A stretch of 25,491 nt of DNA, taken from positions 1 to 25,491 of the IMG/VR virus record IMGVR_UViG_3300037261_000237. One strand, written 5' to 3'. Of the stretch, positions 970-23,942 are shown in pieces. This DNA is from a virus. Under the pieces are notes generated by a model. The model did no database searches, was not told where the DNA came from, and saw only the letters and a list, made by a program, of their open reading frames with translations. The stretch's first letter is position 1, and every line of letters begins with the position of its first letter. The position numbers and the translations under genes were made by a program.

Positions 970-1332
970 TCATGCCGGTGAGTTTTCGACCAGCTCCAGC
1001 TTGTGCATGCGGCGCCAGACGGGTTTCAGTTGCGCTTCCATCCGGCGGGTCTGGGAGCGAACGGCGGCGTCGCACCGGCGCAGTTCGGCGAGCGTGCAGT
1101 GATCGAGCAGTTTGTAACCGGGGCTGCCTGGGAAAGAGACGATCTTGCCCCTGGCCATTTCCTTGATCCGGCGCAGCCGGCGCTTCTGGGCCTCGGTCGT
1201 GGCGCCGAGGTTCTTGGTGGTGACCCAGTCGACCTTGCCGCGGAGCTGGTCGACGAACCAGGCGACATCGGCCGCTGACACGCGCGGCGCGCGGCGGGCG
1301 GTTGCCAAATCGAGATCGAGCTGGGCGGTCAT
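970..1332 (-). CDS. Small winged-helix-like phage protein
   Basis: A 120-residue protein whose central part (about residues 20-80: WFVDQLRGKVDWVTTKNLG, RRLRRIKEMARGKIVSFPGS, then PGYKLL) looks like the winged-helix module often seen in phage early regions, with a basic C-terminal helix. The ATG at 1332 overlaps the upstream stop in ATGA, matching the pattern of this operon; an upstream in-frame ATG at 1389 would overlap the previous gene by 61 bp and is less likely. DNA binding is inferred from the fold only. It could be a middle regulator comparable in role to Mu Mor, but no sequence similarity to Mor is visible. Confidence 0.75.
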   Translation of the reverse strand: MTAQLDLDLATARRAPRVSAADVAWFVDQLRGKVDWVTTKNLGATTEAQKRRLRRIKEMARGKIVSFPGSPGYKLLDHCTLAELRRCDAAVRSQTRRMEAQLKPVWRRMHKLELVENSPA

Positions 1333-5091: not shown

Positions 5092-5396
5092 AGGAAAAAC
5101 GGCACGTCAGTTTCACAGCCGGTGGTTTGGCTGACGCGGATCGGCATGTCGCCGCCGCCGTTCATGTGCTCCAAGAATTCGTTAGGCGATCCGCCTCGGA
5201 GTTTGGTCACTATCTCGGCGATTTGGGCCCGCTGCGCGTCGCTGCACTTCGCCCAATCGAGCATGTAGGCGCTGGTCTCGTCGCTTCCTTCCAGCCTCAC
5301 CTGGTTGGGGACAAGAATATTTTTTATGGGCACCAGCCCGCCTTCGAAGATCGGAAAGAAGGGCGAGTCTTCGCGGAGATAAGCGAAGTTGTTCAC
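5088..5396 (-). CDS. Early phage protein, function unknown
   Basis: A 102-residue protein starting MNNFAYLREDSPFFPIFEGG. The middle contains a helical segment (SDAQRAQIAEIVTKLRGGSP) and no Cys cluster or membrane segment. SPNEF is encoded by the dispersed motif at 5179-5187. I do not recognise the family. Both ends overlap neighbours by four bases. Confidence 0.65.
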   Translation of the reverse strand: MNNFAYLREDSPFFPIFEGGLVPIKNILVPNQVRLEGSDETSAYMLDWAKCSDAQRAQIAEIVTKLRGGSPNEFLEHMNGGGDMPIRVSQTTGCETDVPFFL

Positions 5397-9087: not shown

Positions 9088-11100
9088 TTAGGCAAAATCA
9101 TCCATCGAAGCGATGGGACGCGGCTCCGTGTCGGAGGGTTCGCCGGCGAAATCATCCAGCCCGGCGGTGTTGGCGCGCCGGGCGCGGCTGGCGGCTTTTT
9201 CGTCGGGGGTGAAATCGCGCGCGGTGTCGGCGAGCGCTTCGTTCGTCGCGACCATCTCCGCGTGCGCGCTGCTGTCGCCGGCGTGCCGGAGTCGCGCCGG
9301 CGCGAGACGATCGGCGGTGCGCGCGGCGGCATGGCCCCAGGCGCGAATCGTGGCCGCTTCATCCAGCGGGCTGACGCCATGCACGCGCCGGGCAAGGCCA
9401 AGGAATTGCTTGCGCGCGCCGCAGACAAAGAGGTACTCCGGCGCGAACGGATTAACGAAGACGAGATACTTTTCGCCCTCGGGCAACTCGACTTCGCGAG
9501 TCGCGCCGGGCGCGAGAATGCGCGCCTCGAAAATCATTTCTTCCGGGTCGATCTCGATGTCGCGAAAACGGAAGTAGGAGCCCTTCACTTTTTCTTCGCG
9601 GGCGAGATCATCGAGCAGGAGATCGCAGACCACGTCGGGCCCGATGTGCAGGAAAGTCGGCCGGGCCGGGTCGTAGACTTCCGCCGGGCTGAGCTGCCGG
9701 GTGCGGCTGTAGGTTTGCGGCTGAGCCCGGACTAACGAGTGAAGCAAGCGCCGTGATTCCTCCGGCAAAGCGAGGAGCTCGCGCTCGCCCAGCCAGTCGA
9801 GCGCCTGGGGCGCGGTCCGATATTCATTCGTGAGGTATTCGCATTTACTCCAGCCTTCTAGGCGATGATTGGTGCGGCCGTTGATCGCCCGGTAGAGATC
9901 GCCCAGGAGCGGGAGGAAATGGGCGTGATATTCGAGGGTGGGATGGATGAGGAGAGCGCGGCGCGATTCTGGCAGCCGGGCCGCGAGCTCGAGCAGGTCC
10001 TGCTCGTAATCGAGCATCTTCGCGAGCGTTTCCGGGCGGCGCTGTCGATCGGGGCCGGTCTGGGCCGGGAGATGGTCGAGCCGGTTGTGAATGAGGTTGC
10101 GCAGGCTTTCGAGATGAGCCTTGGCCCTCGGGTTGCCTTTCCCCTCGCCGCGCCAGCTGGCCAGGACGGCCTGTTCTTCGCCGCTGATGCCGCTGTAGCG
10201 GATGTTGATCAGTCCGCCGGTGCGATCGTAAAGGATGCGCGCGATCCGCTCGCGAATGAACGCGGTGCCGTGCTCGCTCATGATCCAGGTGCCGCGCGCC
10301 GAGTAGCCGGTATGGAAAAGCATCCCAGCGAGGAGGAGCCTAACGTTGCGCTCTTTCAGCCCTTCCATTTGCGCGGGGTTGAGCGCTTTCGGAAGGCGCG
10401 GCTTCGTGCCCCAGGCAAACTTGTTCCCGGTGCCAACGCAAAGCGCATCCAGTTCCATGACGCGGCCGACCGCGCCTTTCACTCCGACCCGGACGAAATT
10501 GTCGTGCCAGAGATCGTCGATCTGGACATGACTCATCGGCCAGAGACCGACCCGAGTGGAAAAGGTTTGCGGGAGGCCGGGCGCGGCCGCGCTCAGGCCG
10601 ATATGGAAAGCGATGCGCTCGGTTTTGGTGGGCTGCACCCGGTAGAGATTCCGCTCGCTCCAGCCGCGCGGAAGATTGGGCCAGCCCGGATGACCGTCGT
10701 AGCCAGGGATCGCTTCGCGCCGCCGCCAGCGTTCCTGCAGATCCTCGATCGCGCTGTAGCCGGACCGCTTGTGCTCGTCGTAGAGCTTCTTCAGGAACTG
10801 CTGAAACTCCGGGTTTTTCGTGCGCGCCGCGCGGACCGCTTCGACCGCGCGGTAATCGATGAAAACGCGCCAGTCGGCGCCGTCGCGCAGCTCGTCGTAG
10901 ACCCGGCGCACGGTCGCCGGGCTGACCCCGAGGATGCAGGAGATTTGCTGGAGCGCGTGCCGGATCGGCCTAACGAGCGGGACCCGGCAGAAAGCTTCGA
11001 CCCCATCGCGAATCCGATCGCGCTGCGCCTGCGGCAGAGAGGCATAGAACTTGTCGTTAGGCAGAATGACGAGCGCTTTCATGTTAATCGGCGACGGCAT
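9088..11100 (-). CDS. MuA-like DDE transposase
   Basis: A 670-residue protein, close to MuA (663). An N-terminal HTH (about 51-74, QQISCILGVSPATVRRVYDE) is followed by the Mu transposase core: HVQIDDLWHDNF near residues 191-202 carries the first catalytic Asp (D195/D196), SEHGTA at 275-280 occupies the second position, and AKAHLES (E331) the third. The second position reads Glu instead of the usual Asp. A beta-barrel-like region follows and the end (GLDDFAGEPSDTEP, IASMDDFA) is acidic, as expected for contact with MuB. Two starts are possible, ATG 11100 or ATG 11082 (MKALVILPND); the second leaves a one-base gap after the upstream stop. The stop is in the dispersed motif. Confidence 0.9.
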   Translation of the reverse strand: MPSPINMKALVILPNDKFYASLPQAQRDRIRDGVEAFCRVPLVRPIRHALQQISCILGVSPATVRRVYDELRDGADWRVFIDYRAVEAVRAARTKNPEFQQFLKKLYDEHKRSGYSAIEDLQERWRRREAIPGYDGHPGWPNLPRGWSERNLYRVQPTKTERIAFHIGLSAAAPGLPQTFSTRVGLWPMSHVQIDDLWHDNFVRVGVKGAVGRVMELDALCVGTGNKFAWGTKPRLPKALNPAQMEGLKERNVRLLLAGMLFHTGYSARGTWIMSEHGTAFIRERIARILYDRTGGLINIRYSGISGEEQAVLASWRGEGKGNPRAKAHLESLRNLIHNRLDHLPAQTGPDRQRRPETLAKMLDYEQDLLELAARLPESRRALLIHPTLEYHAHFLPLLGDLYRAINGRTNHRLEGWSKCEYLTNEYRTAPQALDWLGERELLALPEESRRLLHSLVRAQPQTYSRTRQLSPAEVYDPARPTFLHIGPDVVCDLLLDDLAREEKVKGSYFRFRDIEIDPEEMIFEARILAPGATREVELPEGEKYLVFVNPFAPEYLFVCGARKQFLGLARRVHGVSPLDEAATIRAWGHAAARTADRLAPARLRHAGDSSAHAEMVATNEALADTARDFTPDEKAASRARRANTAGLDDFAGEPSDTEPRPIASMDDFA

Positions 11101-11797
11101 CGAGGGAGCGTTTTGCTTTGCCGAAAAGGCTGGCCATCAAGAGGCGCTGCGACTTCGGCAGCAGCGTGGGACTGTTCTCCCGGAGAAAACGGTCAACCGA
11201 TCGGCAGATTGTTTCGTAGCTTTCGAACGCGTCCGCCTCGGCTTGCGCGCGCACTTCGGCCAGAGTCAGCTTCTTTCCCTTGCGCTCGCGCCGGCCGCCG
11301 AGCGGCGCCGGATAATCGAGCATCAGCTGGTAAGAGCCGCGGCCATTGACCCAGCGCGCGACGTAGGAGACGACTGGATGCCGCAGATCGAGCCGAAACT
11401 TCTCCAGCTCTTTGAGCGACGTGACCACATCGTTCGTGAGCAGCTCGAACGTCTTCGACCGCTTCCGGTCAATTTGGACAGTACTGTCTAATTGGCCCTT
11501 GAGGCAGGCGCCCCCAATAAGCATGTAGCGGTTGGCCGACCGGTGGGACTTGCCGAAATTTTCCTTGATGAACGGCCCGAATTCGCCGCGCGGCAGCCGG
11601 TCCTTGACTTCATGGAGAACGATCCCAACCATGACCGCGCAAATGCCGCTCAAGTTTTCGTGGGTGGCTTCCAGCTTAAGCAGGCCAGCAACAGTCGCCG
11701 CCATCTGCGCGCGGTTCATGTCGGCGAGGCCGATCGCTTCGCGCACCAGAGGGCTTTCGTCGTTAGGCGGGATGAGCGCCAGCGTACCTTTTTTCAC
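11084..11797 (-). CDS. DUF3102-like protein
   Basis: A 237-residue protein. The stretch VGIVLHEVKDRLPRGEFGPF, then GKSHRSANRYMLIGG at about residues 57-93, fits the DUF3102 pattern (a helix with EAK..L..GEF..W, then fS.rtA.rYM), found in phage and plasmid proteins thought to bind DNA. The rest is helical and basic (RRERKGKKLTLAEVRAQAEA). PPNDES near the start is encoded by the dispersed motif (11760-11768). Its position just before the transposase suggests a role in early replication or control. It overlaps both the upstream gene (ATGA) and the longest transposase frame. Confidence 0.75.
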   Translation of the reverse strand: MKKGTLALIPPNDESPLVREAIGLADMNRAQMAATVAGLLKLEATHENLSGICAVMVGIVLHEVKDRLPRGEFGPFIKENFGKSHRSANRYMLIGGACLKGQLDSTVQIDRKRSKTFELLTNDVVTSLKELEKFRLDLRHPVVSYVARWVNGRGSYQLMLDYPAPLGGRRERKGKKLTLAEVRAQAEADAFESYETICRSVDRFLRENSPTLLPKSQRLLMASLFGKAKRSLDAVAD

Positions 11798-12171
11798 GCG
11801 ACGAATTTCCTTTTGCGCAGGCTGCCGGCGTCGCGGATGAGCTCGTCGAGCTGGGGCGCGGTCATCTCGCCGAGGAGCGCTTTGATCCGGTCCATGAAAT
11901 CGCCGCTCCGGTAGGTGGCGGAGCGCGCCAGATGGAGCGCCACGCTCCGCCGCGTGATCATGTAGCGATTGACCTCGCGGTTCATCGGCTTGTGCGCGTC
12001 CAGCTCGCCGGATTCGATGCAGCCGTAGATGTAGTTGAGCGAGCGCCCCAGGATGCGGGCCGCTTCGTCCGGGCGCATCAGCGGCTTTTCAAAATCGATC
12101 AGGAAACCGAACGCGATTTCATAATCCGACTGACGGGCCGGCGGGCGGATCGGTGGCGGAGCGGCGCCCAT
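11794..12171 (-). CDS. Excisionase/MerR-type HTH protein
   Basis: A 125-residue protein. Residues about 30-85 (LMRPDEAARILGRSLNYIYG, then ELDAHKPM and ITRRSVALHL) match the HTH_17 / excisionase-type DNA-binding fold: RPDEAAxxLGxSxxxIYxxIESGEL followed by a strand and a RxSVxxxL helix. The C-terminal part (LLGEMTAPQLDELIRDAGSL) is a helical tail. It probably binds phage DNA as an early regulator or a transposition accessory factor. The start lies four bases after the upstream stop and the end overlaps the next gene by ATGA. Confidence 0.75.
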   Translation of the reverse strand: MGAAPPPIRPPARQSDYEIAFGFLIDFEKPLMRPDEAARILGRSLNYIYGCIESGELDAHKPMNREVNRYMITRRSVALHLARSATYRSGDFMDRIKALLGEMTAPQLDELIRDAGSLRKRKFVA

Positions 12172-12175
12172 ACGC

Positions 12176-12367
12176 CTAATGGCTGAGTTGGGCGTCGGGC
12201 AGGGCCTGGATTTCGCAGAGCAGGGCGCGCTCTTCCGCGCTCTGCGCGGCGGCGGTCGTGGGGAGAGCGGCCCGCAGATCGGCGCGCGCGGTGGTTTCCC
12301 ACGCCATCGGGGTAATGATCCGCGCCGTGGCGGCGGCGAGGCAGATAATGATGAGGAGCTTTTTCAT
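12176..12367 (-). CDS. Small exported or membrane protein
   Basis: A 63-residue protein with a clear signal-peptide-like N-terminus (MKKLLIIICLAAATARIITP) and a short Ala/Glu-rich mature part (AQSAEERALLCEIQALPDAQ). Its leader is an unusual A-rich stretch (complement of 12368-12390, AACCAAAAAACCAAAAACC before ATG), similar to the leader of the secreted gene at 7961. The function is unknown; a membrane-acting early peptide is possible. Confidence 0.6.
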   Translation of the reverse strand: MKKLLIIICLAAATARIITPMAWETTARADLRAALPTTAAAQSAEERALLCEIQALPDAQLSH

Positions 12368-12397
12368 GGTTTTTGGTTTTTTGGTTTGAGAGAGTCG

Positions 12398-12610
12398 TTA
12401 GGCTGGGGAACGGTTGGCGCGGGCGAACTGGGCGCGCTTGGCGTCGCGGGCGGCGACGACCTTGGAGAGATCGATTGGCTCTGCCACGTCGAACGAGGCG
12501 CCATAGCTGGGGGATTCAAGGCAGCGGTCGGTAAAGCAGACGATCGCCACTCCCGCCCAGGGCCCTTCGCAAGTGATTTCCTCTGCCTCGAGGCCGGGGA
12601 TCGCGCTCAT
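12398..12610 (-). CDS. Small early protein, function unknown
   Basis: A 70-residue protein, MSAIPGLEAEEITCEGPWAG, then VAIVCFTDRCLESPSYGASF and a helical end (VVAARDAKRAQFARANRSPA). The start at 12610 overlaps the stop of the upstream HTH gene by ATGA; the longer frame from 12805 is a shadow of that gene. The stop lies in the dispersed motif (12395-12403). No family is recognised. Confidence 0.65.
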   Translation of the reverse strand: MSAIPGLEAEEITCEGPWAGVAIVCFTDRCLESPSYGASFDVAEPIDLSKVVAARDAKRAQFARANRSPA

Positions 12611-12786
12611 TTGGCGGCCTCCGCGCGTTTCAGTGCCCGGTAGCGCCGCAGAAGCGGTTTGCTCTCCCGCATCCTCTTCAGCACGTACCAGAGATGGATG
12701 CGCGAAACTCCGAGTTCGCGAGCGTGTCGGACGATCCCAGGGAATTGCGGATTCTGGGGCGAATAGGGTTTCCTGTTGCTTTTCAC
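12607..12786 (-). CDS. Small Cro/Ner-like HTH regulator, first early gene
   Basis: A 59-residue protein read from GTG at 12786. The sequence VRHARELGVSRIHLWYVLKR (residues 19-38) is a clear helix-turn-helix, followed by a basic tail (ESKPLLRRYRALKRAEAAK). GTG is preceded by AGGAA eight bases upstream, and the stop overlaps the next ATG as ATGA. As the first gene of the early operon, opposite the repressor, it takes the place of Ner in Mu or Cro in lambda: it probably limits early transcription and repressor expression. The role is inferred from position and fold. Confidence 0.75.
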   Translation of the reverse strand: MKSNRKPYSPQNPQFPGIVRHARELGVSRIHLWYVLKRMRESKPLLRRYRALKRAEAAK

Positions 12787-12809
12787 GGTGTCGTTCCTGT
12801 AACATGGCT

Positions 12810-12838
12810 ATTAAAGAGCAGAATTCTTACCACGTCCA
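12810..12838 (-). promoter_or_regulatory. Predicted early leftward promoter with embedded operator
   Basis: Read on the minus strand, TGGACG (12838-12833, four of six against TTGACA) and TTTAAT (12815-12810, five of six against TATAAT) are separated by exactly 17 bases. The palindrome AGAATTCT (12820-12827) lies in that spacer, so a bound repressor would block polymerase. Transcription would begin near 12803, about 17 bases before the GTG of the Cro-like gene. The host's sigma-70 consensus is assumed. Confidence 0.5.
12820..12827. promoter_or_regulatory. Operator candidate 1 (CAGAATTCT)
   Basis: This perfect palindrome AGAATTCT, preceded by C, occurs three times within 170 bp and nowhere else in the window that I found. 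This copy lies between the repressor gene and the early operon, inside the predicted early promoter. Confidence 0.5.
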
Positions 12839-12855
12839 GACTTTTTTCTTATCAA

Positions 12856-13272
12856 ATGCAGAATTCTCTCAAGCGGATCAGAAAAGACCGTGGCATCACT
12901 CTGAAAGCCCTCTCCAAGCAGAGCGGGTATGCGGTCTCGACGATCAACAATTTTGAGAACGGCCGGTCCGGTGCGAGTCCAGAATTCTTGCGGCAAATGG
13001 CCGAAACTCTGAAGGTCTCGACGCACCAAGTTCTCGGGACCGAGGACGCCCGGACTAACGAATTACCACCGCGGCGACCGAAGTTCGACTTCGGGACGCA
13101 AGAGGGAAGCCGGGAAGCGTTTCACTGGTTGATCGAGAATATGCCGCTCGAGCATCTGTTGGAGCGCGTGAATGCGATCCTGGATGACTCCGTCAAGCCA
13201 GCCGATCAGAAACTGGCCATGGTGAAAGCCATGATGCCGACGATCGAGAAGAGAATCCAGGCTCTGCGGTAA
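12856..13272 (+). CDS. XRE-family phage repressor (c-like)
   Basis: A 138-residue protein. Residues about 5-60 (LKRIRKDRGITLKALSKQSG, then VSTINNFENGR and LKVSTHQVLG) form a typical XRE/cI HTH: recognition helix AVSTINNFENG. The C-terminal half (EAFHWLIENMPLEHLLERVN, IEKRIQALR) is helical and probably dimerises; there is no LexA-type peptidase Ser/Lys pair, so it is not self-cleaving by that route. It is divergent from the early operon and is the likely lysogeny repressor. The start ATG at 12856 begins the domain; the upstream in-frame extension is non-coding. Operator-like AGAATTCT palindromes overlap its first codons (12860-12867) and lie inside the gene (12981-12988), suggesting autoregulation. 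Confidence 0.85.
   Translation: MQNSLKRIRKDRGITLKALSKQSGYAVSTINNFENGRSGASPEFLRQMAETLKVSTHQVLGTEDARTNELPPRRPKFDFGTQEGSREAFHWLIENMPLEHLLERVNAILDDSVKPADQKLAMVKAMMPTIEKRIQALR
12860..12867. promoter_or_regulatory. Operator candidate 2 (CAGAATTCT), at the repressor start
   Basis: A second exact CAGAATTCT copy covers codons 2-4 of the repressor. Its centre is 40 bp from copy 1, about four helical turns, which would put dimers on the same DNA face. Confidence 0.45.
12981..12988. promoter_or_regulatory. Operator candidate 3 (CAGAATTCT), inside the repressor gene
   Basis: A third exact copy, about 121 bp from copy 2, lies within the repressor coding sequence. It may support DNA looping or roadblock control. 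It encodes ordinary residues (PEFL), so it could also be chance. Confidence 0.35.
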
Positions 13273-13306: not shown

Positions 13307-13768
13307 ATGAAAAAGCTGATTCTCTGTTTCCTCCTCGCCGCCTCTGTGGCCAGCGCCCATGCGGGACAACGGTCGTTCATTTACGGGCGCATTTTGAGCG
13401 TGACGAGCACCGGCGTGCTGATTTCGTGCGCATCGGCCAGGCACTCACATCCGACTGGATCTTATGACCTGGCGGATTCCGGCAACCAAATCGTCCACGT
13501 GACGGCCGATCCGAAGACATTGTTCGCGATCTTGTCGAAACTGCCGGACACGACGATTCACGCCGGCGACAAAGACACCGTGATGCTGAGCGCGCTGGCC
13601 CAAGGCGAATACACCTACACCACGGTTTTGAGGGTGCAGAACACTGTGCCGAACCTGGTCTCTCCGGAAGCGATTGCGCATTACAGCGTGGTGACTCTTA
13701 TCGACCCAAACAATCCGCCCAAGCCGTCCGGCACCCCGGAAATGAAACTGCCGCGCTACAATTTGTAG
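13307..13768 (+). CDS. Exported protein of unknown function
   Basis: A 153-residue protein with a signal peptide (MKKLILCFLLAASVASAHAG, cleavage likely after AHA). The mature part looks like a beta-rich domain (YGRILSVTSTGVLISCASAR, VTADPKTLFAILSKLPDTTI, YTYTTVLRVQ). It lies 34 bp downstream of the repressor on the same strand and may be expressed in the lysogen, so a lysogenic-conversion role is possible. The gene is followed at once by the dispersed motif and the first late-promoter module. The family is not recognised. Confidence 0.75.
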   Translation: MKKLILCFLLAASVASAHAGQRSFIYGRILSVTSTGVLISCASARHSHPTGSYDLADSGNQIVHVTADPKTLFAILSKLPDTTIHAGDKDTVMLSALAQGEYTYTTVLRVQNTVPNLVSPEAIAHYSVVTLIDPNNPPKPSGTPEMKLPRYNL

Positions 13769-13769
13769 T

Positions 13770-13875
13770 CGTTAGGCAGAGCTTCCGCCCTCTGGAAACG
13801 CTTTATCCATCCCTGACTCGCCCCAGTCGCCTGAGTCATTGGCGTCCCGCCGGCGCGGGGTGCGACGCTCGACGC
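13770..13875 (+). promoter_or_regulatory. Late-promoter-like module, copy 1 (upstream of the lysis cassette)
   Basis: In order: CGTTAGGC (13770), a short TTCC...GGAAACG hairpin followed by CTTTA (13784-13804), a 30-bp block (13811-13840) identical to 23109-23138, and GCGCGGGG (13853-13860), then the ATG at 13876. The 30-bp block carries the dyad TGACTC (13814-13819) / GAGTCA (13833-13838). The same order and nearly the same total length (106 against 105 bp) occurs before the scaffold gene. Mu has activator-C-dependent late promoters at both equivalent places. The likely meaning is an upstream terminator followed by an activator site; the start of transcription is not visible. Confidence 0.6.
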
Positions 13876-14640
13876 ATGAAGATTACATTCTTTGGGCGCG
13901 AACCGGCCCTCTGGCTCAGTCTCATTTCGAGCGTGGTCATGATCGTGAGCTCGTTCGCCTTCGCGCTCTCGCCCGAGCAGCAGGGCGTGATCAACGCGGT
14001 CGCGCTCGCTTTCTTCGGCCTGCTCACCGCCTGGAGCATGGCGCGCGACGGTCTCTCCGCCGCGATCCTCGGTTTGATCAAGGCGATCCTCGCCCTCGGG
14101 ATTGCTTTCGGGCTGCAAATGTCCTCGGCCAACCAGGCGATCGTCATGACGCTGGTCGCCGCGGTCTCGGCCATGTTCATCCGGACCCAAGCCGTCGCGA
14201 GTGTTCCGCCGGCGACGGCGTCGATTCCGGTTCTGGGTGGCGCCGCGCCTGCCTTCCGCGCCTTGCTCGTCGCCGCGCTCCTGCCGGCGCTGATGTTCGG
14301 CGGCTCGATCGGCCTGACGAGTTGCGCTACGACTTTTACCGGAAAATCCGAACAAGCCACTCAGCTCACGGCTGATGTTTTCAACGCCTTCGTCACCGCC
14401 GAGCGCCAGCTCAATCCGCTGCCGGTGAGCGCAGCCGTCAAGGCAACTCCGCTCCATCAATACGCGGAAGTGATCCGCCGGAACGGGGTCAACTGGCTGC
14501 AGACGGCCGAAGCTTTGACCGACGCCTATCGGCTGAATCCAACTTCAGCGAATGAAACGGCTCTCCAACAGGCACTCGCCGTCGTCGCAGCGGCGCTCGC
14601 ACAAAGCCAGATCTACCTGGCGCAACTCAACCACCAATAA
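13876..14640 (+). CDS. Holin-like membrane protein with an internal lipobox
   Basis: A 254-residue protein. Residues 11-102 hold three or four membrane segments (ALWLSLISSVVMIVSSFAFA, VALAFFGLLTAWSM, AILGLIKAILALGIAFGLQM, AIVMTLVAAVSAMFI). A further hydrophobic stretch (129-148) ends in LTSC (C150), a good lipobox, followed by ATTFTGKSEQATQL and a helical soluble tail to the end. It looks like a holin joined to a lipoprotein, normally separate proteins. It precedes the endolysin, so a role in lysis is likely. An internal start (ATG at Met 100 or 140) could yield a separate lipoprotein. It follows late module copy 1. Confidence 0.65.
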   Translation: MKITFFGREPALWLSLISSVVMIVSSFAFALSPEQQGVINAVALAFFGLLTAWSMARDGLSAAILGLIKAILALGIAFGLQMSSANQAIVMTLVAAVSAMFIRTQAVASVPPATASIPVLGGAAPAFRALLVAALLPALMFGGSIGLTSCATTFTGKSEQATQLTADVFNAFVTAERQLNPLPVSAAVKATPLHQYAEVIRRNGVNWLQTAEALTDAYRLNPTSANETALQQALAVVAAALAQSQIYLAQLNHQ

Positions 14641-19074: not shown

Positions 19075-20643
19075 ATGATCACCAATTTCTACCTCGATCA
19101 GATCAACCCGCTGCAGAACCTCGACCTGCCGACAGTGATCAACCTGATCCAGCTCGGTCAGCGCGGTTATTACGCGCGGCTGCAATGGCTCTACCGCGCG
19201 ATTGAGAAACACGATCCGGTGGTGCGCGCGGTGAAGCGGCGGCTCCTTGCCTCGCTCTCCGGGCTCGATTGGAACATCAAGGTCGAAGACGTGGGCGACG
19301 ACCCGGCGAAAAAAGCTCTGGCCGACAAGCAGGCGGCGGATCTGCGCGCGGCCTACGATGCGATCGCCAATCTGCGCAGCGCCCTCACCTTCCTCGCCCT
19401 GGCCGATCTGCGCGGCTTTTCTCACGTCGAAAAAATTTATGCGGGCGAAGGCGCGGACGATCCCTGGCTCGTGACCGAGCTGCGGATCGTCGAGCAATGG
19501 TTCTGGGTCCGGAACGGTTACTACGGCGACTGGGCCTACAACGCCGACGCGCGCGAGATCAATTTCGGGGTGCCGATCGATCCGGACCAATTCGTCATTC
19601 ACACGGTGGACGATCCGTCCGATGAAATCTTCACCCGCCTCGCGGTCAAAAGGGAAGTGAACGACGCCGACTGGGATGGCTTCCTGGGGGATTACGGCGT
19701 TCCGCCGATGTTCATCATCGGGCCGCCTAACGTCCCGATCGACAAGGAAGCCGGTTATCAAACGACCGCCGAGAATGCTGTTTCGCGCCGGCGCGGTTAT
19801 TTGCCTAACGGGGCCACCCTGGAGACCCCGAGCGCGACCGGGAGTGGCGGCGCCGACGTCTTCAGCGCGCGGCTGCATTATATCGATGAACAAATCGTGA
19901 TCGGCGGGACCGCGGGCAAGCTGACCGTCCTTTCCGAAGCGGGCTCGGGGACGCTCGCCGGCACCGCGCAAAAGGAAGCGTTCGACGAGATCGCGCAGGC
20001 GATCGCGAACCAGGTCGCGACCCGGCTGCACGAGCAATTCGACAAACCGCTTCTGGCGCGTCTTCACCCTGACGAGCCGGTCCTGGTCTATTTCGAGTTC
20101 GCCCAGATCAACGTCAAGGACACGAGCTCGGTCCTGACCGACGCGGCGACGGCCGCGACCGCCGGTTTCAAGATCGACCCGGAAGAGTTGAGCGAAAAGA
20201 GCGGCTACAAGCTCGAGTACGTGGGACTTGCGGGCGCTCCGCCCGCCACCGGCCAACCGGGCTTGCCAAAACCGGGCGGACCGCCGCCGTCACCGAATCC
20301 CGCTGCAGTCCCGCCTAACGACCCGACAACTGGCAAGCCGGCGACAGCGGCACCTGCAGCGCCCGCGCCCGTGTCCGCGGCGCCGGCTGCGCCTAACGAC
20401 CCTATCGCCACGGTCGCGGATGAACTCCATGTCACGCCCGAATTCGTCGCGCCGGCCAAGAGCGTAATCGACGACTTGATCGCGAAAGCGCAGAGCGGCG
20501 ACATCAGCAAAAAGGACTTGCTCGCCGCCGCCACCGAAGCGCTCAAGCGGATGCCGGAACTCGCCCTGCAGACCGATGTCAGCGGCGTGGCCGATGCCCT
20601 GCAAAGCGCGCTCGAACAATCGGCCGCGGCGGCGCTCGCCTAA
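19075..20643 (+). CDS. Portal protein (Mu gp29-like, DUF935)
   Basis: A 522-residue protein of the Mu gp29 portal family: an N-terminal LIQLGQRGYYARLQWLYRAI, VKRRLLASLSGLDWNIKVED, FSHVEKIYAGEG, VPIDPDQFVIHT, then DWDGFLGDYGVPPMFIIGPP and a long helical crown region. Twelve copies form the vertex ring through which DNA passes. After about residue 390 comes an Ala/Pro linker with PPNDPTTGKP and APNDPIATV (both PND encoded by the dispersed motif), then an extra helical domain (FVAPAKSVIDDLIAKAQSGD to the end). The stop lies in the dispersed motif. Confidence 0.9.
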   Translation: MITNFYLDQINPLQNLDLPTVINLIQLGQRGYYARLQWLYRAIEKHDPVVRAVKRRLLASLSGLDWNIKVEDVGDDPAKKALADKQAADLRAAYDAIANLRSALTFLALADLRGFSHVEKIYAGEGADDPWLVTELRIVEQWFWVRNGYYGDWAYNADAREINFGVPIDPDQFVIHTVDDPSDEIFTRLAVKREVNDADWDGFLGDYGVPPMFIIGPPNVPIDKEAGYQTTAENAVSRRRGYLPNGATLETPSATGSGGADVFSARLHYIDEQIVIGGTAGKLTVLSEAGSGTLAGTAQKEAFDEIAQAIANQVATRLHEQFDKPLLARLHPDEPVLVYFEFAQINVKDTSSVLTDAATAATAGFKIDPEELSEKSGYKLEYVGLAGAPPATGQPGLPKPGGPPPSPNPAAVPPNDPTTGKPATAAPAAPAPVSAAPAAPNDPIATVADELHVTPEFVAPAKSVIDDLIAKAQSGDISKKDLLAAATEALKRMPELALQTDVSGVADALQSALEQSAAAALA

Positions 20644-23075: not shown

Positions 23076-23174
23076 GCCGTTTTTCCGGGCGTGGAAACGG
23101 TTTTCCGTCCCTGACTCGCCCCAGTCGCCTGAGTCATTCGCCAGCGCGCGGGGCGGCTTCTACCCTCGCCGCAG
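23070..23174 (+). promoter_or_regulatory. Late-promoter-like module, copy 2 (upstream of the scaffold gene)
   Basis: The order is the same as in copy 1: CGTTAGGC (23070), a hairpin, the identical 30-bp block (23109-23138) with TGACTC (23112-23117) / GAGTCA (23131-23136), then GCGCGGGG (23146-23153) and the ATG at 23175. The 30-bp block ends 36 bp before the ATG here and 35 bp before the ATG at 13876. Outside the block the two copies are only partly alike, so the 30 bp is under selection or was recently copied. The equivalent Mu site is late promoter PI. Confidence 0.6.
23077..23104 (+). terminator. Possible weak terminator after the G-like gene
   Basis: CCGTTT (with a two-base bulge) CC pairs with GGAAACGG (23093-23100), followed by TTTTCC. 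It ends the transcript of the upstream head genes just before late module copy 2. The stem is short, so termination is probably partial. Confidence 0.4.
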
Positions 23175-23942
23175 ATGTCAGTCTTCCGACCGGTCCTTCA
23201 CTCCACGCGCCGCGGCTGGGCTGTGTTCCATCAGCCTGATATTGTCGCCAGTGGTGGAGCGGAGAACGGCGCAGCCGCAGTGGTGCCTGATCCCGCGGCA
23301 GCTGCCGCGGCCGGACCGCTCGATTACAAAGCGCTTCTTCTCCAGACGCTTGATCTCGACCCCGCCGCGGATGACGCCGCGATCCAGACCGCTTTCGCCG
23401 CCGAAGAAGCGGAGCCGGCAGACGACGCCGGGGCCGCCAATGCGACGCAAGTGACCGATTTGCAGAACCAGTTGACCGCTGCGCAAGCGCGCATCACGGA
23501 GCTGGAGACGACCGCCAATCAGCGCAGCCAGGAAGAAATCGACGAGCTGATCGCCGAAGCAGGCGAATTGCCCGACGACGCGAAGGCCGCCCTGCGCAAC
23601 GCGCTCGGGACCGATCGCGCCGGCGGCATGGCATTGCTCGGCGCGATGAAAAAGCCTGCGCCCGCGGCTCCCGCCGACGCGGCCCCCGCAGTTCCGGCCG
23701 ACGCAGCCGCCGCCCCGGTGGAAAAGCCAGCCGCCGCCGCCGCGCCTAACGACAAAACGACCGGCAAGCCGCCGCCCGCTCCGGTGCACGACACGAAAAA
23801 AAAGGACGCGGGCCTGAGCGACACCGAGCTGGCCAATAAAATTTCCGCACGGGCGAAAGAAATCGTCAAAGCAAGCAATCCGAAGATCAGCCTGACGAAG
23901 GCTTATCAGCAGGCCGAAACCGAGTTGAAATCCAAATCATGA
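23175..23942 (+). CDS. Scaffold-like protein (Mu I C-terminal-like)
   Basis: A 255-residue acidic, Ala/Pro-rich protein. The centre is a coiled coil (TQVTDLQNQLTAAQARITEL, then QEEIDELIAEAGELPDDAKA) and the end is a short conserved-looking helix pair (SDTELANKISARAKEIVKAS, SLTKAYQQAETEL) typical of Mu-like I proteins, where the C-terminal part acts as scaffold. The usual N-terminal serine-protease half is missing, so this resembles the internal scaffold product (Mu Z) alone. The linker PNDKTTGKP matches one in the portal protein and is encoded by the dispersed motif. The next gene overlaps its end by four bases (ATGA at 23939-23942). Confidence 0.7.
   Translation: MSVFRPVLHSTRRGWAVFHQPDIVASGGAENGAAAVVPDPAAAAAAGPLDYKALLLQTLDLDPAADDAAIQTAFAAEEAEPADDAGAANATQVTDLQNQLTAAQARITELETTANQRSQEEIDELIAEAGELPDDAKAALRNALGTDRAGGMALLGAMKKPAPAAPADAAPAVPADAAAAPVEKPAAAAAPNDKTTGKPPPAPVHDTKKKDAGLSDTELANKISARAKEIVKASNPKISLTKAYQQAETELKSKS

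Follow-up and report, generated by a model that had tools for sequence, protein, structure and literature searches.

What is the role of a perfect repeat that occurs twice in a Mu-like phage, once ahead of the lysis cassette and once ahead of the scaffold gene? The window, by which we mean the whole 25,491-bp stretch of DNA analysed here, holds such a pair, and an earlier note suggested that its copies belong to a late-promoter module shared by the two operons, after the manner of Plys and PI of phage Mu. Judged by its genes, the window is a B3-like transposable (Mu-like) prophage of soil Verrucomicrobiota, and a comparison spanning 15.4 kb showed no difference between its DNA and contig PNAA01000048.1, which belongs to a Spartobacteria MAG (palsa_1392). 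The early genes, including TnpA and TnpB, run leftward and the late genes rightward, in the order known from Pseudomonas phage B3, and the other parts of the B3-like plan, a DDE transposase with an AAA partner, a Mu-type terminase and portal and an inverted early region, were all found. Matches were obtained to TniB/AAA, Terminase_6C and Portal_Mu, and TerL stands at 52% to that of B3; TnpA matched no Pfam family, yet it has relatives at 30-72%. A CI-like repressor, an HTH_3 protein at 12694-13272, adjoins the late region. The MAG contig adds 1.6 kb to the left of the window. Here, at the left end of the prophage (locus L056, 1.0-1.6 kb to the left of window position 1), a Dam-like methylase is the last gene of the early operon. 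This end also carries a small convergent ORF, conserved in the relative L003 (15081-15356, minus strand), and GTTGAGAA-like short repeats, possible end sites of the transposase. The genes and repeats from which the question arises are as follows.

13876..14640, plus strand: holin gene, gene 1 of the lysis cassette
23175..23942, plus strand: scaffold-like gene, gene 1 of the capsid operon
13810..13840, plus strand: copy 1 of the 31-bp exact repeat, 5' of the lysis cassette
23108..23138, plus strand: copy 2 of the 31-bp exact repeat, 5' of the scaffold gene

The holin-like gene had been named from the sequence alone, and this call was borne out by PHROG (phrog_9752 holin, E 1e-26), while a search with the holin as query found no relatives. 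For the scaffold call, synteny spoke in its favour, with homologues at the same place in the relatives L008 and L069, whereas the Pfam match (PF06810, E 1e-3) fell below the cut-off.

The two copies are identical over 31 bp, one base more than the perfect 30-bp repeat described earlier (13811-13840 and 23109-23138), and they end, exactly as had been claimed, 35 bp ahead of the holin ATG at 13876 and 36 bp ahead of the scaffold ATG at 23175. An ungapped match between them reaches 41 bp, with 37 or 38 identical positions, and beyond it TGGAAACGsTTT (11/12) lies in register; the score of this pair (41 bp plus TGGAAACGsTTT) was equalled in none of about 300 random windows. We estimated the chance expectation of an exact 31-mer repeat in 25.5 kb at <1e-9, and TGACTC-N13-GAGTCA, present twice in the window, was absent from 100 dinucleotide shuffles. 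No further copy of the 31-bp repeat was found in the 25,491-bp IMG/VR record, which ends inside the capsid genes, and a search of IMG/VR for an exact 25-mer gave none. In addition, a search of the MAG (about 4.5 Mb) that allowed up to 3 mismatches found the repeat twice, both times in the prophage, and thus not scattered through the host genome. The proposed flanking parts CGTTAGGC and GCGCGGGG were both found, giving spans of 106 and 105 bp. We left CGTTAGGC out of the module because none of the relatives' sites that were read showed it and because its position in copy 2 overlaps the preceding gene's stop codon.

Searches among related Verrucomicrobiota phages revealed pairs at corresponding places in three of them. 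L008 (IMGVR_UViG_3300044808_000083), whose portal is about 60% identical, possesses a 33-bp repeat of its own (30/33 identical) that differs from that of the window and ends 31 bp ahead of the holin-like ATG and 33 bp ahead of the scaffold start. L060 (IMGVR_UViG_3300044838_000165), with a head module different from that of the window, has a 36-bp repeat ahead of the holin-like gene and a tail gene. L069, which resides as a prophage in a different genome from the order of the host, carries GGTTGGTGTGGTTGGTG-type repeats ahead of the holin and scaffold genes, and this 3.7-Mb genome contains the repeats in their exact form at no other place. The pair was the top-scoring match of a two-region scan in all four phages, narrowly so in L069. 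As a point against the late-promoter reading, neither the 35.7 kb of G001 nor the 31 kb of G009 contained a third copy. The sequence of the closest relative, L003 (transposase 72%), stops ahead of the scaffold gene; where its lysis cassette would be expected there is a nuclease-like gene (343-1107). A search for long repeats in distant Verrucomicrobiota prophage fragments returned mostly simple repeats. Separately, another prophage locus, L049, contains a near-identical 78-bp repeat (5184-5261 and 12185-12262) that looks like a small intergenic or mobile repeat, and a Pontiellaceae prophage locus, L034, has a TTCCAA-N3-TTGGAA palindrome five times (300, 1193, 7760, 7835 and 12496), possibly a regulatory site.

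Comparison of the four phages also revealed what the repeats have in common. The element of the window can be parsed into the 9-bp units GACTCGCCC, CAGTCGCCT and GAGTCATTS, followed by GC, and on the basis of the self-match at lag 9 and of a register common to the relatives we propose two activator sites.

13815..13841, plus strand: three tandem 9-bp iterons of the lysis promoter, GACTCGCCC, CAGTCGCCT and GAGTCATTG, proposed activator site
23113..23139, plus strand: three tandem 9-bp iterons of the scaffold promoter, GACTCGCCC, CAGTCGCCT and GAGTCATTC, proposed activator site

The corresponding units are ACAGCGCAT AGAGCTTCC AGAGCATTA GCC at the lysis site and AGAGCGCAT GGAACTTCC AGAGCATTA GCC at the scaffold site of L008, AGAGCGCGT AGAGCGCGC GGAGCGTTA GCC in L060, and GGTGTGGGT GGTGTGGTT GGTGATCTA TCC at the scaffold site of L069. 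Thus, in all four Verrucomicrobiota phages 9-bp direct repeats, about three in tandem, share one register and run into TTnGCC. Across them, the lag-9 self-match has a mean z of 3.2-3.5 and every other lag one of at most 1.4, and sets of four random 36-mers, drawn 40,000 times, never did as well at lag 9 and did so once when any lag was counted, the latter figure allowing in part for the fact that the period was first spotted by eye and then tested. A match to as few as two iterons (SASTC-N4-SASTC) is confined, in the window, to the two late promoters. The TGACTC-N13-GAGTCA dyad, which had been put forward as the recognised feature, did not hold up in this comparison: a counterpart exists in none of the three relatives, whereas all have the direct repeats in the same register. 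Because it can be derived from the near-palindromic GASTC units and lacks such a counterpart, the dyad is probably incidental to these sequences and not an essential recognised feature. Likewise, an inverted repeat with a short spacer, of the kind bound by Mu C or Mor, was found neither in the window, whose 6-bp dyad arms are 13 bp apart, nor in the relatives.

Downstream of the iterons, alignment with the relatives suggested a common promoter core, and the following putative boxes were assigned in the window.

13839..13844, plus strand: proposed -35 box TTGGCG of the lysis promoter, aligned to TTnGCC of the relatives
13864..13869, plus strand: proposed -10 box GACGCT of the lysis promoter, 19 bp further on and 6 nt ahead of the ATG; the L008 lysis promoter has the same box
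23137..23142, plus strand: proposed -35 box TTCGCC of the scaffold promoter
23161..23166, plus strand: proposed -10 box TACCCT of the scaffold promoter, 18 bp further on and 8 nt ahead of the ATG, followed by CGCCGC as in the relatives

In seven of the eight promoters, the last iteron runs into TTnGCC (TTGGCG at the window lysis site and CTATCC at the L069 scaffold site), the spacer after this box is 18 bp, or 19 in the window lysis copy, and the start codon lies 6-10 nt past a second, TAsnYT-like box (10 nt in the case of the L060 tail gene, with its ATG at 19392). This second box reads GACGCT, TACCCT, GACGCT, TACTTT, CAGGCT, TAGCTT or TAGTTT. As a further point against the late-promoter reading, no fitting core was found for the L069 lysis copy. 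Beyond the second box, the scaffold and tail copies share a TCGCsGC stretch. Within the window the core pattern occurs at its two promoters only, and the layout of three 9-bp repeats, box, 18-19 bp, box, 6-8 nt and start codon recurs in relatives with repeats of another sequence. Neither site has a sigma-70 consensus promoter, as is expected of activator-dependent promoters, and TTGGCG/TTCGCC and GACGCT/TACCCT may act as weak -35 and -10 elements. If they do, the mRNA should start at the start codon or no more than about 5 bases from it; from this spacing we infer that the mRNAs would be leaderless or nearly so.

For comparison with reference transposable phages, the DNA upstream of the lysis gene was matched, genome by genome, with the DNA upstream of the protease gene and scored against about 300 random windows. 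In B3, D3112 and RhkS_P1 the match beat all random windows. Mu, whose C sites are known and which served as the positive control, gave a weak signal, at about 2% in the same comparison; Leptolyngbya phage JY19 gave no convincing pair, and no repeated dyad was evident at such places in StopSmel, Aussie or Mwe-Yong1. The 38 kb of B3 (L013) contain exactly three TTTTCG-N6-CGAAAA dyads, at 11566 before the holin gene, at 19835 before the protease gene and at 26818 between the methylase gene and that for the tape measure, and these are likely to be the binding sites of the Mor-like late activator of B3. B3 thus resembles the window in its gene order with an inverted early region and in a shared site before holin and protease genes, but it differs in having this dyad, no 9-bp period and a Mor gene (the Mor-like late activator ORF1). 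The period was also absent from RhkS_P1 and was seen in only one copy in D3112 (z 2.1). Long segments common to lysis-side and protease upstream DNA were observed at 10693/19737 in D3112 (L057) and at 11651/19543 in RhkS_P1 (L059), which are candidate late promoters. The suggestion of a shared late-promoter module like Plys and PI of Mu was therefore strengthened by lineage-specific pairs in three relatives and in at least three reference transposable phages, a lineage-specific site that recurs at these operon heads being what is expected for a dedicated late activator. Taken as a reading of sequence, the two copies are probably activator-dependent late promoters of the B3-like prophage, serving its lysis and scaffold/capsid operons through iteron sites in a Mu C-like manner.

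As in the C and Mor systems of Mu, a shared candidate site stands before the lysis and scaffold/protease operons, and the same is true of the relatives. The late promoters of Mu have their C sites upstream of the -35 (PMC4461284), and Plys, PI, PP and Pmom with C resemble the window in the lysis and scaffold/protease places, in this upstream site, in non-consensus promoters and in one site common to several late operons; they differ in that C recognises a dyad and not 9-bp iterons, and in the Verrucomicrobiota phages the start codon lies 6-10 nt from the proposed -10 box. Pm of Mu likewise has its activator site just upstream of or over the -35, but the Mor dimer binds two 5-bp inverted repeats centred at -43.5 (PMC4390567), in contrast to the direct repeats of the window. 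Contiguous 9-bp direct repeats such as those of the window are bound in Streptomyces by BldC, head-to-tail and with one winged-helix protomer per 9 bp (PMC5859096), a likeness in geometry only, as BldC is a host regulator with AT-rich sites. In the proposed mechanism, a phage protein encoded in the early operon would bind the iterons (about -60 to -34) in a head-to-tail row and, once bound, would activate host RNA polymerase at the lysis and capsid operons at once, late in infection.

Could the repeats instead be operators of the CI-like repressor (12694-13272), which would silence the late operons in the lysogen with no dedicated activator involved? The last iteron does overlap the proposed -35 box, and the gene for this HTH_3 protein lies beside the late region. 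However, the early control region (12100-12900) contains no similar element (best match 17/30), and mainly for this reason we consider the explanation unlikely; in addition, even the two-iteron match is confined to the two late sites, which lie mostly upstream of the -35 of promoters that look weak unaided. Alternatively, an alternative sigma factor might read these promoters and the repeats might be a side effect or a minor upstream sequence. The core boxes are kept between phages and depart from the sigma-70 consensus, and one related prophage (L082) encodes, between its winged-helix and Dam genes, a 68-aa ORF (13706-13912, minus strand) with a sigma-70 region 4.2-like motif (IERRALRKLR). 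Nevertheless, none of the four phages that carry the pair showed such a motif, and within each phage the repeats are more exactly kept than the core, which makes this scenario very unlikely. Still more improbable is an RNA element, that is, a terminator, an antitermination site or a leader structure, as might be suggested by the location of the repeats in intergenic gaps and by the short hairpins seen in the earlier reading: the TTCC/GGAAACG hairpin is no more stable than shuffles, the folding energy of six copies is no better than that of shuffles (z -0.5 to 1.2), no Rfam family was matched, and the proposed start leaves no leader. Finally, although some loci of this group do contain simple repeats, a host intergenic repeat or chance duplication has a negligible probability, being excluded by the presence of only two copies in the MAG, both in the prophage, and opposed by the different pairs that the relatives have at the same places.

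With late promoters under a dedicated activator as the preferred reading, two early genes of the window come into question as the source of that activator.

970..1332, minus strand: winged-helix-like early gene, candidate activator 1 (annotated ORF 970-1389, conserved Met at 1332), kept in all four phages
11794..12171, minus strand: HTH_17 early gene, candidate activator 2 (PF12728, E 5e-7), with homologues in all four phages

The first gene occupies a place close to the end of the early operon, as Mor does in B3, and in L069 no other gene separates the winged-helix gene from the lysis promoter. An AlphaFold2 model from 8 sequences predicted a winged helix with a long additional helix (pLDDT 85); a first model from 3 sequences was poor (pLDDT 41) and was set aside. 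The model matches many winged helices at a generic level (Z 4-6), and BldC was not among the matches listed. Homologues of this gene were found in nine other genomes among 388 Verrucomicrobiota genomes, and in the eight of these that were examined, which contain prophage remnants, its neighbourhood showed no recognisable lysis or late region. The HTH_17 protein gave no match to BldC by sequence. The winged-helix gene is our best guess for the late activator, at somewhat below an even chance, and the HTH_17 gene is a second and distinctly less probable one. With regard to the classical activators, the Pfam Mor/C family (PF08765) had no match in the window phage, the MAG, G001, G003, G009, L003 or G034, in a search that also missed the annotated Mor of StopSmel.

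Seven phages yielded pairs, and Mu a weak signal, when lysis-upstream DNA was compared with scaffold-upstream DNA within each genome; such a comparison seems to be an inexpensive means of locating late-activator sites in uncultivated phages. Mor/C has been taken to mark transposable phages, yet the available part of one report (PMC8705779) describes groups without it, namely transposable prophages of Leptospira with a B3-like plan, for which no replacement activator is named there. It is conceivable, though we hold this only tentatively, that the transposable phages of Verrucomicrobiota have swapped Mor/C for a winged-helix protein that binds head-to-tail on 9-bp iterons, and that protein and iterons co-diverge while the core and the leaderless start stay fixed. 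For this group, the paired iteron promoters would provide a concrete DNA target, together with two candidate genes for the protein that acts on it.
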